Assembly (NCBI GenBank): GCA_017858255.1
Contig: JAFMBV010000002.1
Span: 1-64,000 of the forward strand
Length of the DNA: 64,000 nt
DNA from: Bacteriovoracaceae bacterium
GTDB taxonomy: Bacteria; Bdellovibrionota; Bacteriovoracia; Bacteriovoracales; Bacteriovoracaceae
Reading direction: 5' to 3'
The notes beneath the pieces are model-generated. The model was not told the origin of the DNA. It saw nothing but the letters and a program-made list of their open reading frames with translations, and ran no database searches. Within the stretch, counting starts at the first letter, position 1, and each line of letters starts with the position of its first letter. Shown piece by piece: positions 35,223 to 43,842 of the stretch. The position numbers and the translations under genes are program-made.

Positions 35223-35346
35223 TTTAAAATTATCTAAACCTCATAAGTATCCGTAATTAAATAAGTGGGCAAGGACAATCTTGCCTCTTTGTCTCACCGA
35301 GTAAACCTTTTGATATTATATACTTATAACTGCACAGGAGTGCCAA
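35223..35346. other. Intergenic region before the Tad/FHA operon
   Basis: A small hairpin GGCAAG/CTTGCC (35268-35273 with 35280-35285) lies 45 bases after nagZ without a T tract. It is either a weak nagZ 3' end or part of the leader of the next operon. AGGAG at 35335-35339 is the ribosome binding site of the next gene. Confidence 0.4.
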
Positions 35347-36252
35347 ATGCTAATGTATGCATCCTTGGTCTTGGTGGGTCTTTCCATTTTCTTGGTTACA
35401 AATTTAATGTTCCAAGAGGAAGACGAATACAAGGCCCAGGAAAAACTAGAATCCGGAGCTGGTTCCGATAAGGAATCATTAGCGCAACATGGAATTGTGT
35501 TGAGATATTCTCGGCCTTTTTTTCGAAGATACGTTACACCGATTGTCTCAAGCTTTAAAAATAAGAAAAAAATAAGAGAAAAGTACAAGAGAAACTTAGC
35601 AGCATCGGGTCTGACTGATATTTTAACACCAGAAGATTTCTTTAGTTTTAAATTATTTTTGATAGTAGGTTTTCCAATCGTCTTTTTGGGCTTGAGAACC
35701 TTTCTCGAAGAAACCTGGCCTTTGAATTATATTTTCATCATTTCAATATTTGGTTTCTTTTATCCTGACCTCTGGATAAAAAGCAAGATTTCACAAAGAC
35801 AGCAAGAGGTTATGCGAAATATGCCTTTTGCTGTAGATATGCTCGCTCTAAGTGTGGAAGCAGGATTGGACTTTATCGCAGCGATGTCCAAGGTTAATGA
35901 AAAGGCCAAGGCATCTGCATTAACAAAAGAATTTGAAATTCTCATGAAAGAAATTAGGATTGGAGCTTCAAGAGCTGAGGCCTTACGGAATATGGCATGG
36001 AGAGTTGATCTAATCCAAGTGTCATCGTTTTGCGCTACTTTAATTGCAGCAGACTCAGTTGGTGCAAGTATTGGACCCATTTTAAAGTCTTTAAGTATCG
36101 AGATTAGACAAAAAAGATCCTCTGAAGTGGAAAAAGCTGGAGCAACGGCCGCGACAAAGATTTTATTTCCAATGTTATTTTTAATTGTTCCCGCTGTTTT
36201 TATCATTGTAGGTGCGCCGTTGGCCTTAGAGGCAATGGGGGCAGGCAAATGA
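35347..36252 (+). CDS. TadC-like type II secretion F-domain membrane protein
   Basis: The 301-residue protein has membrane segments at about residues 2-22, 95-117, 122-142 and 272-296. Its cytoplasmic F domain contains MPFAVDMLALSVEAGLDFIAAMSKV, typical of TadC in tight-adherence (Flp) pilus systems. TadB-TadC pairs form the inner-membrane platform driven by the TadA ATPase. Here TadB and TadA are missing from the window, and the gene leads an operon of FHA proteins. It overlaps the DUF192 gene by 4 bases. The start has AGGAG at 8 bases. Confidence 0.88.
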   Translation: MLMYASLVLVGLSIFLVTNLMFQEEDEYKAQEKLESGAGSDKESLAQHGIVLRYSRPFFRRYVTPIVSSFKNKKKIREKYKRNLAASGLTDILTPEDFFSFKLFLIVGFPIVFLGLRTFLEETWPLNYIFIISIFGFFYPDLWIKSKISQRQQEVMRNMPFAVDMLALSVEAGLDFIAAMSKVNEKAKASALTKEFEILMKEIRIGASRAEALRNMAWRVDLIQVSSFCATLIAADSVGASIGPILKSLSIEIRQKRSSEVEKAGATAATKILFPMLFLIVPAVFIIVGAPLALEAMGAGK

Positions 36253-36608
36253 GCAAACATATTAAATTTGTTATTAAAAAAGAGCAGGAAGTTATTGCTT
36301 CGGAAGTCGAGCTGGCGGATAACTTTTTGTTAAGGGCAAAGGGACTGATGTTTAGTTCTGGTATTGGAGATAGAGATGGCCTCCTTATTGAACCCTGTAA
36401 TTCTATTCATACATTCTTTATGAACTACCCGATCGACGTCATTTTCCTCTCTAGTGATAATAAAGTAGTAAAAGTTTTTAAGTTTCTAAAACCGTGGAGA
36501 ATGACACGAATGTACTTTAGTGCTTCAAAAGTACTTGAAATGGTTGCCGGTTCTCTTAAGACAGAGCTTAACCCTGGTGATCAATTGGATATTCAATGTA
36601 CAAGTTAG
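36249..36608 (+). CDS. DUF192 protein
   Basis: The 119-residue protein fits DUF192: LLRAKGLMFSSGI, LIEPCNSIHTFFMNYPIDVIFL and the end KVLEMVAGSLKTELNPGDQLDI. The family has no settled function and is often found beside secretion or TadC-like genes. There is no signal peptide, unlike many members, which may mean it acts in the cytoplasm. It overlaps the TadC-like gene by 4 bases and the following FHA gene by 13 bases. Confidence 0.85.
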   Translation: MSKHIKFVIKKEQEVIASEVELADNFLLRAKGLMFSSGIGDRDGLLIEPCNSIHTFFMNYPIDVIFLSSDNKVVKVFKFLKPWRMTRMYFSASKVLEMVAGSLKTELNPGDQLDIQCTS

Positions 36609-38158
36609 TGGTTGTAGCGGGGAAATTAAGAGGGACAGAATTTGTCTTAGAAGAAGGTGAAAATACTCTCGGTAGAGATGATTCTTGTTCTATTCACTTT
36701 GCCGTACCTGGAGTATCAAAAAAACACTTCTCTATAACGGTGACAGGTGACACTTGTTATATAAATGATATGGGAAGCTCTAACGGTACCTTTCTAAATG
36801 GGAAGGCAATCAAAAGGGCTACCGTCCAAAATGGCGATAAAATTGCGCTACCCGATTCTATTATTCAAGTTGTTTACGTAGAAGAGAAAAAGGTAATCGT
36901 AAGAAAAAGAGTCGGTTCAGAAGATGACGATGATAAAGACTTTATGGACCCCGGAGTTCCGCCAGAGTCATTGGTGGCTAAAATATTTTGGGCTTTTAAG
37001 TTTAAAGTGATGCCTGTTGTTCACGGTATAAATGAAGAGTATGAATGGCACCATCTAATGGGGATTTTATGTGCTATTTTTTCTGTCGCAGCGATATCAT
37101 TAACAATCTTTCCGGCATTACAAGATTCAAAAATGATCCTTATAAGAGAAACAGCAACTAGAGGTAGCTCCTACGCGGATATGGTCGCTAGGTTGAATAA
37201 CCGAGCTCTTGAAAGAAAAGAATTAGAAAAAATAGACACAAATTTTATTAAGAATGAAGAGGGTGTTAAGGAATTTCGTCTGTTTGATATGGAGGGGCGT
37301 ATAGTGCGTCCAATTGAAGAGCTAAATAATAATATTGGGCGAGATCCATTTTTTGCTACATCACTAAATTGGGCCATTAAAACGATTAATAATAAAGGGA
37401 TAGTCCTTAAGAAGCTACTAGATGATGGTGAGATTGGGATTGCAAAAAAGATTGTTGCTTTTAACCCTAGAACGGCCACCGAAGAAGCTGTAGGGGTCAT
37501 TGCAATTAAATTTGAACCGACTTCTTTAAAAATTGAAGCGACTAAGTCTAGAAAGGCTTACTTAGAAGCCTTGGTGACGACATCTTTGGTTGCCATATTC
37601 TTCTTTGGATTCATTTATTACCTAACAGTACGGCCTATTGAAGAAATTAACTTTCAAATTGAAGAAGCTCTAAGAGGGCGAAGGAAATCACTGGATAGTA
37701 GATTCCTTTTCCAGGAGTTAAATCCACTTCGAAATAGTATTAATGCCTTATTGGCAAGGATACGAGAACTTAACAATGAAGGGGAAGACGAATTTGCTGA
37801 GGAAGAAGGCGATGAGATGTACGTTCGTCAGTTGTATGAATTCATGCAGGGGGCAGCTGGACCTACTTGTATACTTGACTCTCAAAAAAACCTATCTCAT
37901 ATAAATTTAGAAGCTGAAGATATAACCGGTATGAGAGAAAGTGCTAGTCAAGGGATGAGTCTTCTTGATGTCTCTCGTGAACAAGGCTTTGCTGCAACTG
38001 TAATTGAGCTTTGTGATAATAGTGCTAATAACCTTGGAACAAATCAACAGGGAGAATATGAATTACAAGGGATACCCTACACGATTCATGTTTCTTCCCT
38101 TATTGGAAAGGATGGCTTTGCAAAATCTTACTACATAACATTTGTGAGAATTGATTAA
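36596..38158 (+). CDS. FHA-domain membrane sensor with PAS-like C-terminus
   Basis: The 520-residue protein is in order: an FHA domain (about 1-95, with LGRDDS at 25-30, VSKKH and SSNGTFLNG, all phosphothreonine contacts); a linker; a membrane helix (about 154-174); an extracytoplasmic part to about 324; a second helix (325-344); a HAMP-like segment opening VRPIEEIN; and a PAS-like domain (about 405-515). No kinase or other output domain is present. It looks like a transmembrane receptor whose cytoplasmic side binds phosphothreonine proteins. It overlaps its neighbours on both sides. Confidence 0.85.
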   Translation: MYKLVVVAGKLRGTEFVLEEGENTLGRDDSCSIHFAVPGVSKKHFSITVTGDTCYINDMGSSNGTFLNGKAIKRATVQNGDKIALPDSIIQVVYVEEKKVIVRKRVGSEDDDDKDFMDPGVPPESLVAKIFWAFKFKVMPVVHGINEEYEWHHLMGILCAIFSVAAISLTIFPALQDSKMILIRETATRGSSYADMVARLNNRALERKELEKIDTNFIKNEEGVKEFRLFDMEGRIVRPIEELNNNIGRDPFFATSLNWAIKTINNKGIVLKKLLDDGEIGIAKKIVAFNPRTATEEAVGVIAIKFEPTSLKIEATKSRKAYLEALVTTSLVAIFFFGFIYYLTVRPIEEINFQIEEALRGRRKSLDSRFLFQELNPLRNSINALLARIRELNNEGEDEFAEEEGDEMYVRQLYEFMQGAAGPTCILDSQKNLSHINLEAEDITGMRESASQGMSLLDVSREQGFAATVIELCDNSANNLGTNQQGEYELQGIPYTIHVSSLIGKDGFAKSYYITFVRID

Positions 38159-39150
38159 TGGAAATAAGCGAAAAAATACCAGTAAAGATCGTAAAGAGTC
38201 TAAAGGTTCCAAAAGAACCTGGTGTTTACTTTCGTCTTCTTTGTATGACAGGGAAAAATAAAGGCTTTTCCTATTTTATAAATTCAAAGCGTGTTGTTAT
38301 GGGTAGGTCCGAAAAGGCTGAAATTCAGGTTATAGATGGGAAGTCTTCACGTGAGCATGCAGAGTTAGCACTAGTTGGTGAGAAGTATGTTTTAACAGAC
38401 TTGGGTAGCCAAAATGGCATCATTGTAAATGATTTGAAGGTTAGTCAGCATCGTTTGGCGGATAATGACAAAATCATCATCGGCCAAACAGTTTATAAAT
38501 ATAATCGAATAGTAGTGAAAAAATCTGAGTTTCCTGTCGCTGTCGATGAGGATGAAGATTTCGAAGAATACGAGGAAGAAGAGCAACCAAAAAAAAATAA
38601 AAAGAAGGCTGAAAAGAAAAGTAGTAAATTTATCGTGATTCTAGTGGTTGCCTTAGGGGCTGTTTTAATTTTGCCTGATGATGGGGACTCACCAGCAACA
38701 GCGAAAAGAAAGGGAAGCGTAGTTGGTAATGTCCAGCGTGAGAAAATAGCATTATCAGACCCAAGAAATAATGAAATAGAAGATAAAGATGTAAGGGACA
38801 AATTAAAGGCTTTTATACATCGTGGACAAAGAGAATATCGTGAAGGCAATTACTTTAGAGCTATTGAGCAATTTGAACTAGCGTTAATTTTAGTTCCAAA
38901 CCATGTAGATGCTTCATTCTACTTAAGGAAAACTAAAGAGTCGCTGCGAGAGTATTTAACTTCAATAAAAGAAAAGGCTCAGCAAGATCAAGATGGCTTG
39001 AAATATACAACGGCTTTAAATCAATATTGTGCAATTATTTCTTTTCTTCAGGAATACCCTGAGGATCCAAGATATAAAGAAGCCGAAAAACAAATTGAAC
39101 TTTTAGAAGAAAAACTGGGGTACTTAAAAGGTGAATTTAAGTGTTATTAA
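38158..39150 (+). CDS. FHA-domain, membrane-anchored TPR protein
   Basis: The 330-residue protein has an FHA domain at about 25-115 (MGRSEKAE at 48, SSREHAEL, GSQNGIIVND), a charged linker (DEDEDFEEYEEEEQ, then Lys-rich), and one membrane helix (about 157-173). An extracytoplasmic TPR-like region begins with YREGNYFRAIEQFELALIL. The FHA end is cytoplasmic and the TPR end periplasmic if topology follows the positive charges. It starts as TAATG over the previous stop and overlaps the next gene by 20 bases. Confidence 0.85.
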   Translation: MEISEKIPVKIVKSLKVPKEPGVYFRLLCMTGKNKGFSYFINSKRVVMGRSEKAEIQVIDGKSSREHAELALVGEKYVLTDLGSQNGIIVNDLKVSQHRLADNDKIIIGQTVYKYNRIVVKKSEFPVAVDEDEDFEEYEEEEQPKKNKKKAEKKSSKFIVILVVALGAVLILPDDGDSPATAKRKGSVVGNVQREKIALSDPRNNEIEDKDVRDKLKAFIHRGQREYREGNYFRAIEQFELALILVPNHVDASFYLRKTKESLREYLTSIKEKAQQDQDGLKYTTALNQYCAIISFLQEYPEDPRYKEAEKQIELLEEKLGYLKGEFKCY

Positions 39151-41518
39151 AGACAATGACCTTCTATTTCAAGTAGACCTCGCTAAAGAGGTTGAGGGGA
39201 ATGATGGAGCACAACTTACATTTTTTGTAGGACGAAGTGACTCGTGTCAAGTTGTCTTAGATGACAAACAGGTCTCAAGAGAACATGCAAAAATCACTTA
39301 TAACCATGGGGCTTGGAATATTGAAAAAGCCGCAGATTTTAATACATTAAACTTAAATGGAACTAATTGTGATGAAGCCACTTTAAAAAATGGTGATCTG
39401 ATAAGTGTAGGTCCTTTCACGATAAATGTTTCATTACCCGATATTATTGTGACGGAATCTTCTTTGACTGGCCCACCTACTGATGAAGATATGGAGTTTA
39501 TTGACACTCAGACTCAGGATATATCAAGTGTAGATGTTGGTCTTGGGAATGAAGAAGCTACAGAATTACTGACAAACGAAAACTTTGAAAATGAACTTGA
39601 TGAAGAGGGCCTAGAGTCTGCTGAGATAGAAGAACAGCTCGATGAAGGACTTGGTGGGGAGCTAGATGATGAACTTGGGGGTGGGCTCGATGATGACCTA
39701 GGTGATCTTGAAGACTTGGACCAAGAGCTCTCTCCTAATGATATTGATCCTATTTCGGATGAGTTCGCTGATGATTTTGACGGTAATTTTGGTGATGACA
39801 GTGAAAATACCACAGTAGAAGACAGCGGAGAAGAGGGGCTCGACGAAGCAGAGGGTTCTGATTTTTCAGACGACTATGGGGAAGGCGAGTATGGAGAGGA
39901 AGGATATGAAGATGAAGGCTATGATGTAGAGTCTATTGATGATGAGAAAACACAAGTTCTTAAAAGTTTTGCGAATTTTGTCTTAGAAATATTTGGAGAA
40001 TTTGCACCTTATGATAAATTCAATATAGAAAAGTCAGAAACCTTCATCGGCAGAGATCCTGAAAAATGCGATATTGTTTTAAATGACCCGGAAGTTTCTG
40101 GTGTTCATGCTGTAGTCAAAAAAAATGCAATCACTTGCACTATTGAAGACTTAAAGTCTGCCAATGGAACCATATTAAATGGTGAAAGAATCAATCAACA
40201 TGATTTGACATCAGAGGATGAATTTCTAATTGGATCAACCTCTTTTACTGTTAAAATTCAATCCGATTTTATTGAACAAGAAAAAGACCGCATTATGCCT
40301 GTCGAGGAAAATCAGGTTGTCGAGGTTCAAGAAGTTGTTGAAGTTGATGAAAACTTTGAGGATGTAGACGGTAGTGTTATTGAAGGAGACTCTCTCGGTG
40401 GTGGATCTCTTGATGGTAAACCCAAATCCCTTTTTAGTAAGGAGTCGTTAAGAGATCCTGCACAACGAAAAAAAATCGTTTATATTATCGTCGGTCTGTT
40501 GGTCTTATGGGCTTTTCTTGGCGAGGATGAGGATTCTAAAACTAACGTTGTCGCCAAAAAGCCAAAAGCAAAGATAGAAGAAAAGAAACTTACAAATCCT
40601 AATCAAAAGGTTCTAACTCCCGAAGAAACAGAGTTTGTTGAAGGCCAGTACCTATTATCGAAGCAATATTTTAATGAAGGTAAATATAGTGAAACAATTA
40701 TGGAGTTGGATAAAATATTTGCTATTACTCCAGAATATAAAAAATCTAAACAAATTAAGGCATTAGCAAAAGAAGGACTCGAGAGGATTTCGCGCCTTCT
40801 TGAAGAAGAGAGGAAGGAAAAAGAAAGAAAAGAGCGAGAAGCGAAAGTAAGGGCATTGCTTGTCGAGGCAAAGGACGCTGTTAGTAAAAATCAAGTAGGA
40901 AGGGCTGAAAATATATTTAAAGAAATATTAAAGCTAGATCCTGAAAACTTTGAAGTGACTCAACTTAAACTTCAGGTGGATGCGTATAAGAAGGAAAAGG
41001 AGAGAGTTGCAATTGAAAAGGCTCAGAAAGAGTCAGAGAGAAAGAGGCAGCTACAAGAACTTAGTCCTGGCAAAACATTTTACTTATCAAAAGATTGGTA
41101 TAGGGCCACATTAAAATTACAAGAATTTTTAAGAGGTAAAGGCTTAGATGAGGACTTGATTAGAGAAGCTTCCGATATGCTTGATAAATCAAAACAAAAC
41201 TTAAACGCGGTTGTGAATCCTTTAATTGGTAAAGCAAGGTCTTTAAAAGAGGGGCAAGATTTAAAAGGTGCTTATGAACTTTTTCTTGAAATACTTCTAT
41301 ACCATCCTGCTCATGAAGAAGCCTTAAATGAAATGGATGATATACGAAATAAATTAGAGCTCAGAAGTAAGCGAGTTTATCGTGAAGCAATCATCGCTGA
41401 ATCATTAAGTCTTTATAATGACGCTAAAGAAAAGTTTCAAGAAGTTCAGCAAATAAGTCCCACAGATTCAGATTATTATGAAAAGGCTACGGAAAAGTTA
41501 AAAGACTACCTTGATTAG
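39131..41518 (+). CDS. Double-FHA membrane protein with acidic linker and TPRs
   Basis: The 795-residue protein (GTG start inside the previous gene) has a first FHA domain at about 30-100 (FVGRSDS, VSREHAKI, weak NxxLNLNG). An acidic Gly/Asp/Glu linker spans about 110-270. A second FHA domain is at about 290-375 (GRDPEKCDIV, SANGTILNG). One membrane helix (about 447-462) leads to a long TPR or coiled part with KEKERKEREAKVRA. It is like the preceding protein but doubled. The Asp/Glu linker is probably unfolded. Its position in the operon suggests assembly with the TadC-like protein. Confidence 0.85.
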   Translation: MNLSVIKDNDLLFQVDLAKEVEGNDGAQLTFFVGRSDSCQVVLDDKQVSREHAKITYNHGAWNIEKAADFNTLNLNGTNCDEATLKNGDLISVGPFTINVSLPDIIVTESSLTGPPTDEDMEFIDTQTQDISSVDVGLGNEEATELLTNENFENELDEEGLESAEIEEQLDEGLGGELDDELGGGLDDDLGDLEDLDQELSPNDIDPISDEFADDFDGNFGDDSENTTVEDSGEEGLDEAEGSDFSDDYGEGEYGEEGYEDEGYDVESIDDEKTQVLKSFANFVLEIFGEFAPYDKFNIEKSETFIGRDPEKCDIVLNDPEVSGVHAVVKKNAITCTIEDLKSANGTILNGERINQHDLTSEDEFLIGSTSFTVKIQSDFIEQEKDRIMPVEENQVVEVQEVVEVDENFEDVDGSVIEGDSLGGGSLDGKPKSLFSKESLRDPAQRKKIVYIIVGLLVLWAFLGEDEDSKTNVVAKKPKAKIEEKKLTNPNQKVLTPEETEFVEGQYLLSKQYFNEGKYSETIMELDKIFAITPEYKKSKQIKALAKEGLERISRLLEEERKEKERKEREAKVRALLVEAKDAVSKNQVGRAENIFKEILKLDPENFEVTQLKLQVDAYKKEKERVAIEKAQKESERKRQLQELSPGKTFYLSKDWYRATLKLQEFLRGKGLDEDLIREASDMLDKSKQNLNAVVNPLIGKARSLKEGQDLKGAYELFLEILLYHPAHEEALNEMDDIRNKLELRSKRVYREAIIAESLSLYNDAKEKFQEVQQISPTDSDYYEKATEKLKDYLD

Positions 41519-41527
41519 GATGATCAT

Positions 41528-42268
41528 ATGATTAAGTTACAGAGTTATGCAGCTAGAACAGACCAAGGGCCTTATTTACAACTTAATGAAGATGGACATG
41601 AAGTAGACCTTGTAAATGGTCTTTATATGATATTCGATGGGTTTGGCGGAGCTTCGGTTGGAGATAGGGCAGTAAGTCTGGTTAATGATACAATTAAAAA
41701 GTTCTACACAAGAGTCGGTGGAGATCCTGATTCGACTTTACCGTTTTTTTATAGTCCTAGATATTTAATAGAGGGTAATGCTCTTATAAACGCTATGGAA
41801 TATGCTCATTATCTTCTAAAGCAGGACAATAAAGATAAGGATATGAATAGTCGGGGGGGAACTGCTGGATTGGCGATCGCTCAAGCTGAGAATATTTTAA
41901 CTTTTGCTTCGACTGGTAATTGCCTGGCGCTTCTGTATTCAAGAGGTGACTTACAAATAGTATGTGAGCCCGAAAATTTTGAGTTTATTTCAGGTGATCA
42001 TTTTGAAAAGCAATTTACGACAGCTTCTGCGACGGCCTTTGGATTATTTGATGATCTTCATCTCAATATTAAAGAGGTGAGAATTAACAAAGGTGACCGA
42101 GTGATTTTACTTACTGATGGTGTATATTCTCGTGTAAAAAACTCGGAGATTCGAGATATTCTTCAGAAGGAAGGTTCTAAGAATCAAGATCGGATTGATG
42201 ATCTTTTCGATCTGGCCAATAGTCGTGGTAATTTGGATAATCAAACTGCCATTGTCCTCAATTTCTAG
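41528..42268 (+). CDS. PP2C-family protein serine/threonine phosphatase
   Basis: The 246-residue protein has PP2C metal motifs: NEDGHEVD near residue 20, MIFDGFGGASVGDRAV (DGxGG), RGGTAGLAIA, LLTDGVYSRV and DNQTAIVLNF at the end. Such enzymes remove phosphate from Ser and Thr and would oppose the kinase that makes FHA-binding sites. It follows the double-FHA gene by 9 bases. No serine/threonine kinase gene is in the window, so the matching kinase must lie elsewhere. Confidence 0.9.
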   Translation: MIKLQSYAARTDQGPYLQLNEDGHEVDLVNGLYMIFDGFGGASVGDRAVSLVNDTIKKFYTRVGGDPDSTLPFFYSPRYLIEGNALINAMEYAHYLLKQDNKDKDMNSRGGTAGLAIAQAENILTFASTGNCLALLYSRGDLQIVCEPENFEFISGDHFEKQFTTASATAFGLFDDLHLNIKEVRINKGDRVILLTDGVYSRVKNSEIRDILQKEGSKNQDRIDDLFDLANSRGNLDNQTAIVLNF

Positions 42269-42300
42269 AAACATTCTGACATGTTTAGAATTTTTAATTT
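42263..42300 (+). terminator. Candidate terminator after the PP2C gene
   Basis: TTCTA-GA-AACAT pairs with ATGTTTAGAA (to 42290) with a two-base bulge, followed by a T-rich run. The hairpin includes the PP2C stop codon. It would end the TadC-to-PP2C operon before the receiver gene. Confidence 0.55.
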
Positions 42301-42360
42301 TAAGGGCCAAGTCTATTGATTAGACACGCCAATTAAGCGAGAATAATCAAAAGGTTATGT

Positions 42361-43842
42361 ATGAGTGAGAAAATACTAGTCGCTGATGACAGTCCCACAA
42401 TTCAAAAAGTAGTTGGCATTACTTTGGCCAATACAGACTATGAAATAGTTCAGGCACTTTCTGAGTCTGAATTATTTGGTATATTAGAGTCCGATTCTTT
42501 TGATTTGGTATTGCTGGATTTTAATCTATCAGAAGAAATTGATGGATACGAACTTTGCAAAAAAGTTACAGATCTTTCTCCACAATCAAAACTACTCGTT
42601 ATGCTCGGCACTTTTGATACTGTAGACGACAATCGGTTAGAAGAATTAGGTATTGTCGAAAAAGTAATAAAACCATTTGAGAGCAGTAAATTTATTCAAA
42701 AAATTAAATCAGCATTAGATTTATCTTTACCAGAGACATCAATTTTTGATGAAAATAATGGCGAAGAAGAATTTGAAGAGGATGATTCCTCTAATGAAAA
42801 TCAAATTTTTAATGAGCAGTCAGAAGAAGAGTGGGTTATCTCTGGACCTAAGGTGGAAGAAGATGATTCTTCCCCTATGCCAGAAGGAAACTTTTTGGAA
42901 GATGATAAATCACAAGAAAATATCTTAGCGAGCGAAGTGCTTGGGTGGGGAATGAGTGTTCCTGAGGTTATTGGATCAACTAAAAGCCTATCTTCAGTGA
43001 TGCCACCAAAGATGAGTGAAGCTGAGGAAGTAACAAAACTTCAGAAAAATTCATCAACAAAATCTTACCAAGAGGAAGATGCTACTGGTGAGTGGAAGGC
43101 CTCAGAGCTTTTAGAAGCATCTGATGAATCTGATTTACCTGTTGAGGAAGACCTTGATTACCCGACAATGGGCGACCATGCTAATAGTCAGCCAAGCTCA
43201 AGCCTTGTTTCACTTGATGAGTTAAGTGGCAATATCGGTATCGATGAAGATGAAGATGAAGATGAAGATGAAGAGGAATTCGAAGATCTAGAGGAAACCG
43301 ACCCTCAAATAATAATTCAGAAACAAGAAGACGACCCCGATTTAGAAAAAGAATTGAGTGAAGAGATAAGTCCTGATGAATTTTGGGCCGCCGACGAAGG
43401 TTACGATGACGATCAGCCAGGCGACGAAGATGAACATACAATTACGATTGATGCTCATGATGATGATGAAGATGACGACTTTAAGCTAGAAAAGCACTCT
43501 TCTATAGAACTTGGACCAAAGTTAGAACAAGATGAAAGTGATGATCCTACGGTAGAAGCTTTGAATGATCTTCGTGAGAGAGAAGCGGGGCTTGAAGAAG
43601 TTGGTCCCAAGTTAGAAAGAGTTTCTACTGATTCTATAGATAAAGACGCAATTATTTCTTCTTTAAAAGATGAACTTAGACCCATAATTAAAGAAATGGT
43701 CCGAGAAGCTATTGAGGAAATGGGAAGAGAGACTTCTGAAAAAGTGGCTTGGGAAATTATACCAGACCTTGCGGAAAACCTGATTCGCAGTGAAGTTGAA
43801 AAGTTATCTCAAAAGGTTCAAGAGAAACACTCTTTAAGCTAG
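42361..43842 (+). CDS. Receiver-domain protein with long acidic linker and PopZ-like tail
   Basis: The 493-residue protein has a receiver domain at 1-118 (DD at 9-10, phosphoacceptor Asp53 in LLDFNL, KP at 104-105). A very acidic linker covers about 120-430. The final 55 residues are a helical segment (RPIIKEMVREAIEEM, AWEIIPDLAENLIRSEVEKL). That tail resembles the oligomerising end of PopZ-like polar organisers (W...LP...E.L...EI). It lacks any DNA-binding output. It stands 92 bases after the phosphatase gene and may belong functionally to the FHA cluster. Its 3' end overlaps birA by 4 bases. Confidence 0.8.
   Translation: MSEKILVADDSPTIQKVVGITLANTDYEIVQALSESELFGILESDSFDLVLLDFNLSEEIDGYELCKKVTDLSPQSKLLVMLGTFDTVDDNRLEELGIVEKVIKPFESSKFIQKIKSALDLSLPETSIFDENNGEEEFEEDDSSNENQIFNEQSEEEWVISGPKVEEDDSSPMPEGNFLEDDKSQENILASEVLGWGMSVPEVIGSTKSLSSVMPPKMSEAEEVTKLQKNSSTKSYQEEDATGEWKASELLEASDESDLPVEEDLDYPTMGDHANSQPSSSLVSLDELSGNIGIDEDEDEDEDEEEFEDLEETDPQIIIQKQEDDPDLEKELSEEISPDEFWAADEGYDDDQPGDEDEHTITIDAHDDDEDDDFKLEKHSSIELGPKLEQDESDDPTVEALNDLREREAGLEEVGPKLERVSTDSIDKDAIISSLKDELRPIIKEMVREAIEEMGRETSEKVAWEIIPDLAENLIRSEVEKLSQKVQEKHSLS
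43243..43272 (+). repeat. Hexanucleotide microsatellite inside the receiver gene
   Basis: Five tandem GATGAA units encode an Asp-Glu run in the acidic linker. Changes by whole units would keep the frame. Confidence 0.85.

Follow-up and report, generated by a model that had tools for sequence, protein, structure and literature searches.

A phylum-wide operon of Bdellovibrionota joins TadC to membrane-bound FHA proteins and a PP2C-fold protein

In Bdellovibrio bacteriovorus, tadC (Bd0470) and Bd0474 share one operon, and a mutant in either gene can neither kill nor round its prey; the Bd0474 mutant still attaches to prey (PMC6561027). Bd0470-Bd0475 form one operon, in which Bd0474 displays an FHA-FHA-membrane-TPR layout of about 673 aa and the FHA protein Bd0473 is predicted to contact Bd0475 (ipTM 0.604; PMC12034629). 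The Kil system of Myxococcus xanthus is a two-cluster Tad-like machine with many FHA proteins that serves contact-dependent prey killing (PMC8460266, PMC12075869), and a published tree puts the Bdellovibrionales systems beside it (PMC8460266). FHA proteins and a PP2C are also combined on a contact-dependent envelope machine in the PpkA-PppA-Fha pathway of the T6SS (PMC3953482, PMC5995506). In this work, we describe a locus that resembles all three. It lies in the window, the whole 64,000-nucleotide stretch of DNA analyzed, which corresponds to contig C101 of a source genome of 4.08 Mb (207 contigs, 98% complete). Its features are the following:

35267-35286, + strand: terminator-like stem-loop between nagZ and tadC, the upstream edge of the operon (consensus match only)
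35347-36252, + strand: TadC, inner-membrane platform protein (Pfam T2SSF 3e-15)
36249-36608, + strand: DUF192 protein (Pfam DUF192 1.8e-19), directly after tadC in relatives that have the block
36596-38158, + strand: FHA1, with FHA, transmembrane segment (TM), periplasmic PAS/Cache-like domain, TM, HAMP-like helices and PAS (Pfam, hydropathy, predicted structure)
38158-39150, + strand: FHA2, with FHA, TM and periplasmic TPR (Pfam, hydropathy)
39131-41518, + strand, GTG start: FHA3, with FHA, acidic linker, FHA, TM and periplasmic TPR (Pfam, hydropathy)
41528-42268, + strand: predicted PP2C-type Ser/Thr phosphatase (Pfam PP2C_2 6e-9; four metal-binding Asp)
42361-43842, + strand: receiver protein with a long acidic linker (Pfam Response_reg 5e-15)

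The ORF coordinates bear out the original prediction of six same-strand genes with overlaps or gaps of 9 bases or less: tadC and the DUF192 gene overlap by 4 bases, DUF192 and FHA1 by 13, FHA1 and FHA2 by 1, and FHA2 and FHA3 by 20, while 9 bases separate FHA3 from the PP2C gene and 92 bases separate the latter from the receiver gene. FHA domains were detected by Pfam in FHA1 (5e-17), FHA2 (2e-14) and FHA3 (two domains at 1e-30); the PAS match in the window was just under the cut-off (1.4e-4) and the TPR matches were weak. Hydropathy gave two membrane segments in FHA1 (151-176 and 321-345), one in FHA2 (153-178) and one in FHA3 (446-467), so the three FHA proteins are all membrane-tied, and the earlier picture, in which FHA membrane proteins with TPR arms in the periplasm are coupled to a TadC platform, was right. 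Hydropathy detected no membrane segment in the DUF192, PP2C and receiver proteins, and no signal peptide was seen in the DUF192 protein. Upstream of tadC, a promoter-like motif (CTTTTGATATTMTATA...TTA, 35311-35331, + strand) is common to close relatives in an alignment of these sequences and may drive the operon. The TAD operon of Bdellovibrio is reported to be FliA-driven. For this reason the FliA consensus TAAA-N13-17-GCCGATAA was sought, with no match in the window.

A tadC match was present in all 192 Bdellovibrionota genomes sampled. Gene order was counted in the 93 Bdellovibrionota loci with at least 6.5 kb 3' of tadC, and tadC-DUF192-FHA1-FHA2-FHA3 was found in 92 of them: 91 by automatic labels, plus L080, which has the order too and whose divergent FHA proteins had been mislabelled. 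The sole exception (L117) is a single Bacteriovoracaceae MAG with a tadC orthologue and without the rest of the block. A scan of contigs yielded at least 80 loci, all with a Bdellovibrionota-type tadC. Outside the family of the window, nagZ is inverted or not found and the flanks vary; the block itself is constant. Conservation in related genomes had been set beforehand as the test of the grouping, and since the order is conserved phylum-wide, the six-gene operon tadC-DUF192-FHA1-FHA2-FHA3-PP2C is not a product of chance and is confirmed. The receiver gene, which had been grouped with the operon, does adjoin it. It lies between the PP2C gene and birA in almost every Bacteriovoracaceae locus and is absent from the sampled blocks of other families; as nagZ, mreB, birA, rph and rdgB are also syntenic within Bacteriovoracaceae, this linkage says little, and the receiver, whose C-terminal helix is KVAWEIIPDLAENLI, probably lies outside the core module.

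The similarity to the Bd0470-Bd0475 operon extends from gene number to protein layout. TadC comes first, an equal number of genes precedes the counterpart of Bd0474, and FHA3 has the layout of Bd0474. Loci of family f6 carry the same five genes, in which FHA3 measures 672-695 aa, followed by a sixth gene whose product, wherever the start can be placed clearly, is about 211-228 aa long, and the position of Bd0475 is the slot of a PP2C-fold protein in the f6 genomes. On the basis of gene order, architecture and length, the block in the window is taken as orthologous to Bd0470-Bd0475, a match made through the f6 genomes and not the HD100 sequence itself, and Bd0475 is here identified, by us, with the PP2C-fold slot protein. 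The two differ in that the PP2C of Bacteriovoracaceae is apparently active, as judged from its residues, whereas the protein of Bdellovibrionia (f6, f11, f18, f22 and f23, families for which we infer this class name) has none of the metal ligands.

The original prediction had also remarked that the operon is without TadA, TadB or a kinase, and had called the system split or new. It is split: contig C67 of the same genome encodes an Flp-type pilin (a weak match, 1e-4), a prepilin peptidase, a TadE-like protein, CpaB, a secretin, a TadZ-TadA fusion and TadB. A RHS-repeat/DUF6531 protein (L021:10894-12519) is encoded directly 3' of tadB in this operon. T2SSF proteins of the genome are found on C32 and C184 (two T2SSF domains each, like the platform proteins of type IVa pili or type II secretion), on C67 and in the window, and neither C67 nor the rest of the genome has a TadC other than that of the window. 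Between C101 and C67, the genome thus holds a Tad (Flp) gene set of TadA-family ATPase, TadB, TadC, CpaB/RcpC, secretin, prepilin peptidase and Flp pilin, which we read from gene content as one split Tad machine; the TPR arms of FHA2 and FHA3 might replace TadD. In families f4, f12, f15, f17 and f19 the block continues straight into flp, tadE, cpaB and rcpA on the same strand. A secretion or adhesion system independent of Tad, with a motor of its own, would account for an operon without an ATPase or TadB gene, but the Tad operon of this genome lacks only TadC and other families join both clusters, which makes such a system highly improbable. Nor is the operon a new secretion system; it makes up the second gene cluster of a Tad pilus, and its published Bdellovibrio orthologue is needed for predation (PMC6561027, PMC12034629). 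Only slightly less remote is the proposal of a role in GltG-like gliding motility or in a type III basal body instead of a pilus: the FHA domains do match NCBIfam GltG and SctD far under cut-off, but these matches are confined to the FHA domain, tadC is always first in the block, and the flp/tad operon is contiguous with it in several families. Taken together, the operon is likely to encode the inner-membrane half of a machine for Tad (Flp) pili, with a dedicated control complex. Like Kil, this machine is divided over two clusters, but KilF has an N-terminal FHA domain, whereas the fusion partner of TadA in this genome is a TadZ/MinD-like domain (L021:7681-9903, CbiA/MinD-like domain plus T2SSE by Pfam), and Pfam detects no FHA domain in the fused protein. 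A search for a partner resembling Bd0075 found four GYF_2 matches in the genome, none with a demonstrated GYF-TM-long TPR layout.

The phosphatase of the original prediction stands for the window, where the PP2C has all four metal-binding Asp (22, 37, 197 and 237) and its profile matches solved bacterial PP2Cs including PppA (1e-23); across the phylum, the catalytic residues have been lost in many lineages. The four Asp are complete in 9/9 f1 representatives, in most of 60 further matches from named loci (mostly Bacteriovoracaceae), in f20, and in one member each of f8 and f13, the other f8 member having Glu at Asp 237. Between one and all four are missing in members of f2, f4, f12, f15, f17, f19 and f24 and in the other f13 member, and the Bdellovibrionia protein has none of the four. 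In the f3, f7 and f9 loci the slot yielded no PP2C-like gene. Pfam alone misses the Bdellovibrionia protein, save one marginal member, and profile and structure comparison were therefore needed: comparison with PP2C by profile gave a probability of 98.8 (E 1e-16), each of the ten members tested is recovered by the PP2C profile at 4e-6 or below, and an AlphaFold model (pLDDT 85) matches the cyanobacterial PP2C tPphA (3e-13) and PppA (1.5e-10). By profile comparison and predicted structure, the Bd0475-like protein of Bdellovibrionia is a PP2C pseudophosphatase; our literature search for PP2C pseudophosphatases returned eukaryotic cases only. Position and fold are therefore conserved better than catalysis, and the decay of the PP2C partner argues that docking outweighs its enzymatic role in Bdellovibrio. 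Such a pattern would also suit a different arrangement, in which the FHA and PP2C-fold proteins are a structural scaffold of the Tad basal body, with phosphate-independent docking, a pseudo-enzyme and no phosphorylation switch. FHA domains can bind independently of phosphate too. The absence of the PP2C gene from f3, f7 and f9, and the loss of catalytic residues with the gene still in place in members of f2, f4, f12, f15, f17, f19, f24 and the five Bdellovibrionia families, favor this scaffold; the retention of the four Asp in nearly all Bacteriovoracaceae counts against it.

Also in line with a scaffold, a search with four kinase queries found a Hanks kinase in none of the 120 tadC neighbourhoods. 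In this the locus departs from the threonine phosphorylation pathway of the T6SS, as it does in that its machine is a pilus, and association with a T6SS was rejected because the core/sheath gene (VipA/TssB) was not found in the genome. The original prediction had suggested looking for a Ser/Thr kinase elsewhere, and the source genome has four Pkinase matches, all outside the window. At least one kinase was found in 95/97 sampled genomes and exactly one in over a dozen, several of the single-kinase genomes having theirs in a frame of about 640-810 aa. One of the source genome's matches is a 682-aa Hanks-type Ser/Thr kinase (L189:9326-11374, G000:C99, - strand), which, given the single kinases of similar length elsewhere, is by elimination the best candidate to act on the Tad/FHA system. 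No Hanks kinase was detected in the f2 genomes G010 and G018 (loci L188 and L187), each 88% complete, yet both retain the beginning of the FHA block, and FHA1 and FHA2 of L188 have their phosphate-binding residues intact. Besides, a short kinase-like frame with a PP2C gene directly after it (G000:C9:14588-15968) forms a separate kinase-phosphatase pair.

The FHA domains themselves speak against a scaffold. Five residues of the phosphothreonine site (Gly, Arg, Ser, His and Asn) never vary among 39 sequences of FHA1. FHA2 has Arg, Ser and His in all of its 40 sequences and Asn in 36 of them. Of the two FHA domains in FHA3, the second has Arg in 38/40 sequences and Ser in 39, and the first keeps Arg and Ser and not Asn. 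This near-invariance in FHA1, FHA2 and the second FHA of FHA3 is new here, and these proteins are otherwise very diverged. A pure scaffold would not need phosphothreonine-binding residues, and we accordingly hold the scaffold to be possible and rather doubtful. The reading of phosphothreonine by the FHA proteins is well supported by these residues, and it is plausible that pilus assembly is under phosphothreonine control. A model of FHA1 from the end of the FHA domain onward (pLDDT 85, pTM 0.44) shows a long helix, a PAS/Cache-like periplasmic domain, a second membrane helix, HAMP-like helices and a PAS domain; its best PDB match was a WalK model (2e-13), with a weak WalK match in NCBIfam. The membrane half of FHA1 thus follows the TM, extracytoplasmic PAS/Cache, TM, HAMP and PAS order of WalK-type sensor kinases. 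Unlike these, it has no histidine kinase domain and carries FHA at its N-terminus, so that in the model FHA1 resembles the sensory half of such a protein, with FHA in place of the kinase.

The gene content and order, their conservation, the domain folds and the loss of residues are what we observe; they suggest a mechanism in which we infer the kinase, the phosphorylation, the signal and the regulation of the pilus. TadC would partner TadB and the TadZ-TadA motor encoded on the other contig; FHA1 would sense the periplasm, and FHA2 and FHA3 would provide periplasmic TPR arms and cytoplasmic FHA domains. Upon a signal, for example prey or surface contact, a Ser/Thr kinase encoded elsewhere would phosphorylate a threonine residue in either a platform or a motor protein, and binding of the phosphothreonine by the FHA domains would lock the complex in an assembly-competent state. 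The PP2C protein would dock on the FHA proteins and, in the Bacteriovoracaceae lineage, remove the phosphate; in Bdellovibrio the docking protein is catalytically dead and would be only a binding partner. As many lineages have a dead phosphatase or none at all, reversible phosphorylation at the operon would not be universal. It is tempting to speculate, and we propose it only tentatively, that the Tad pilus has a built-in complex which reads phosphothreonine and gates its assembly, that the phosphatase subunit of this complex decayed several times, fully in Bdellovibrio, to a pseudophosphatase docking protein, and that a threonine phosphorylation pathway on the pilus, separate from that of the T6SS, times prey killing.

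Altogether, our results tie previously unexplained FHA genes to the Tad apparatus throughout the phylum, identify the Bd0475 slot as that of a PP2C-fold (pseudo)phosphatase and show that the operon also encodes a sensor-like FHA protein. They bear on how prey contact triggers the Tad/Kil machine in bacterial predation and, by virtue of these three points, make a phospho-switch of the pilus directly testable in B. bacteriovorus, for which mutants exist.
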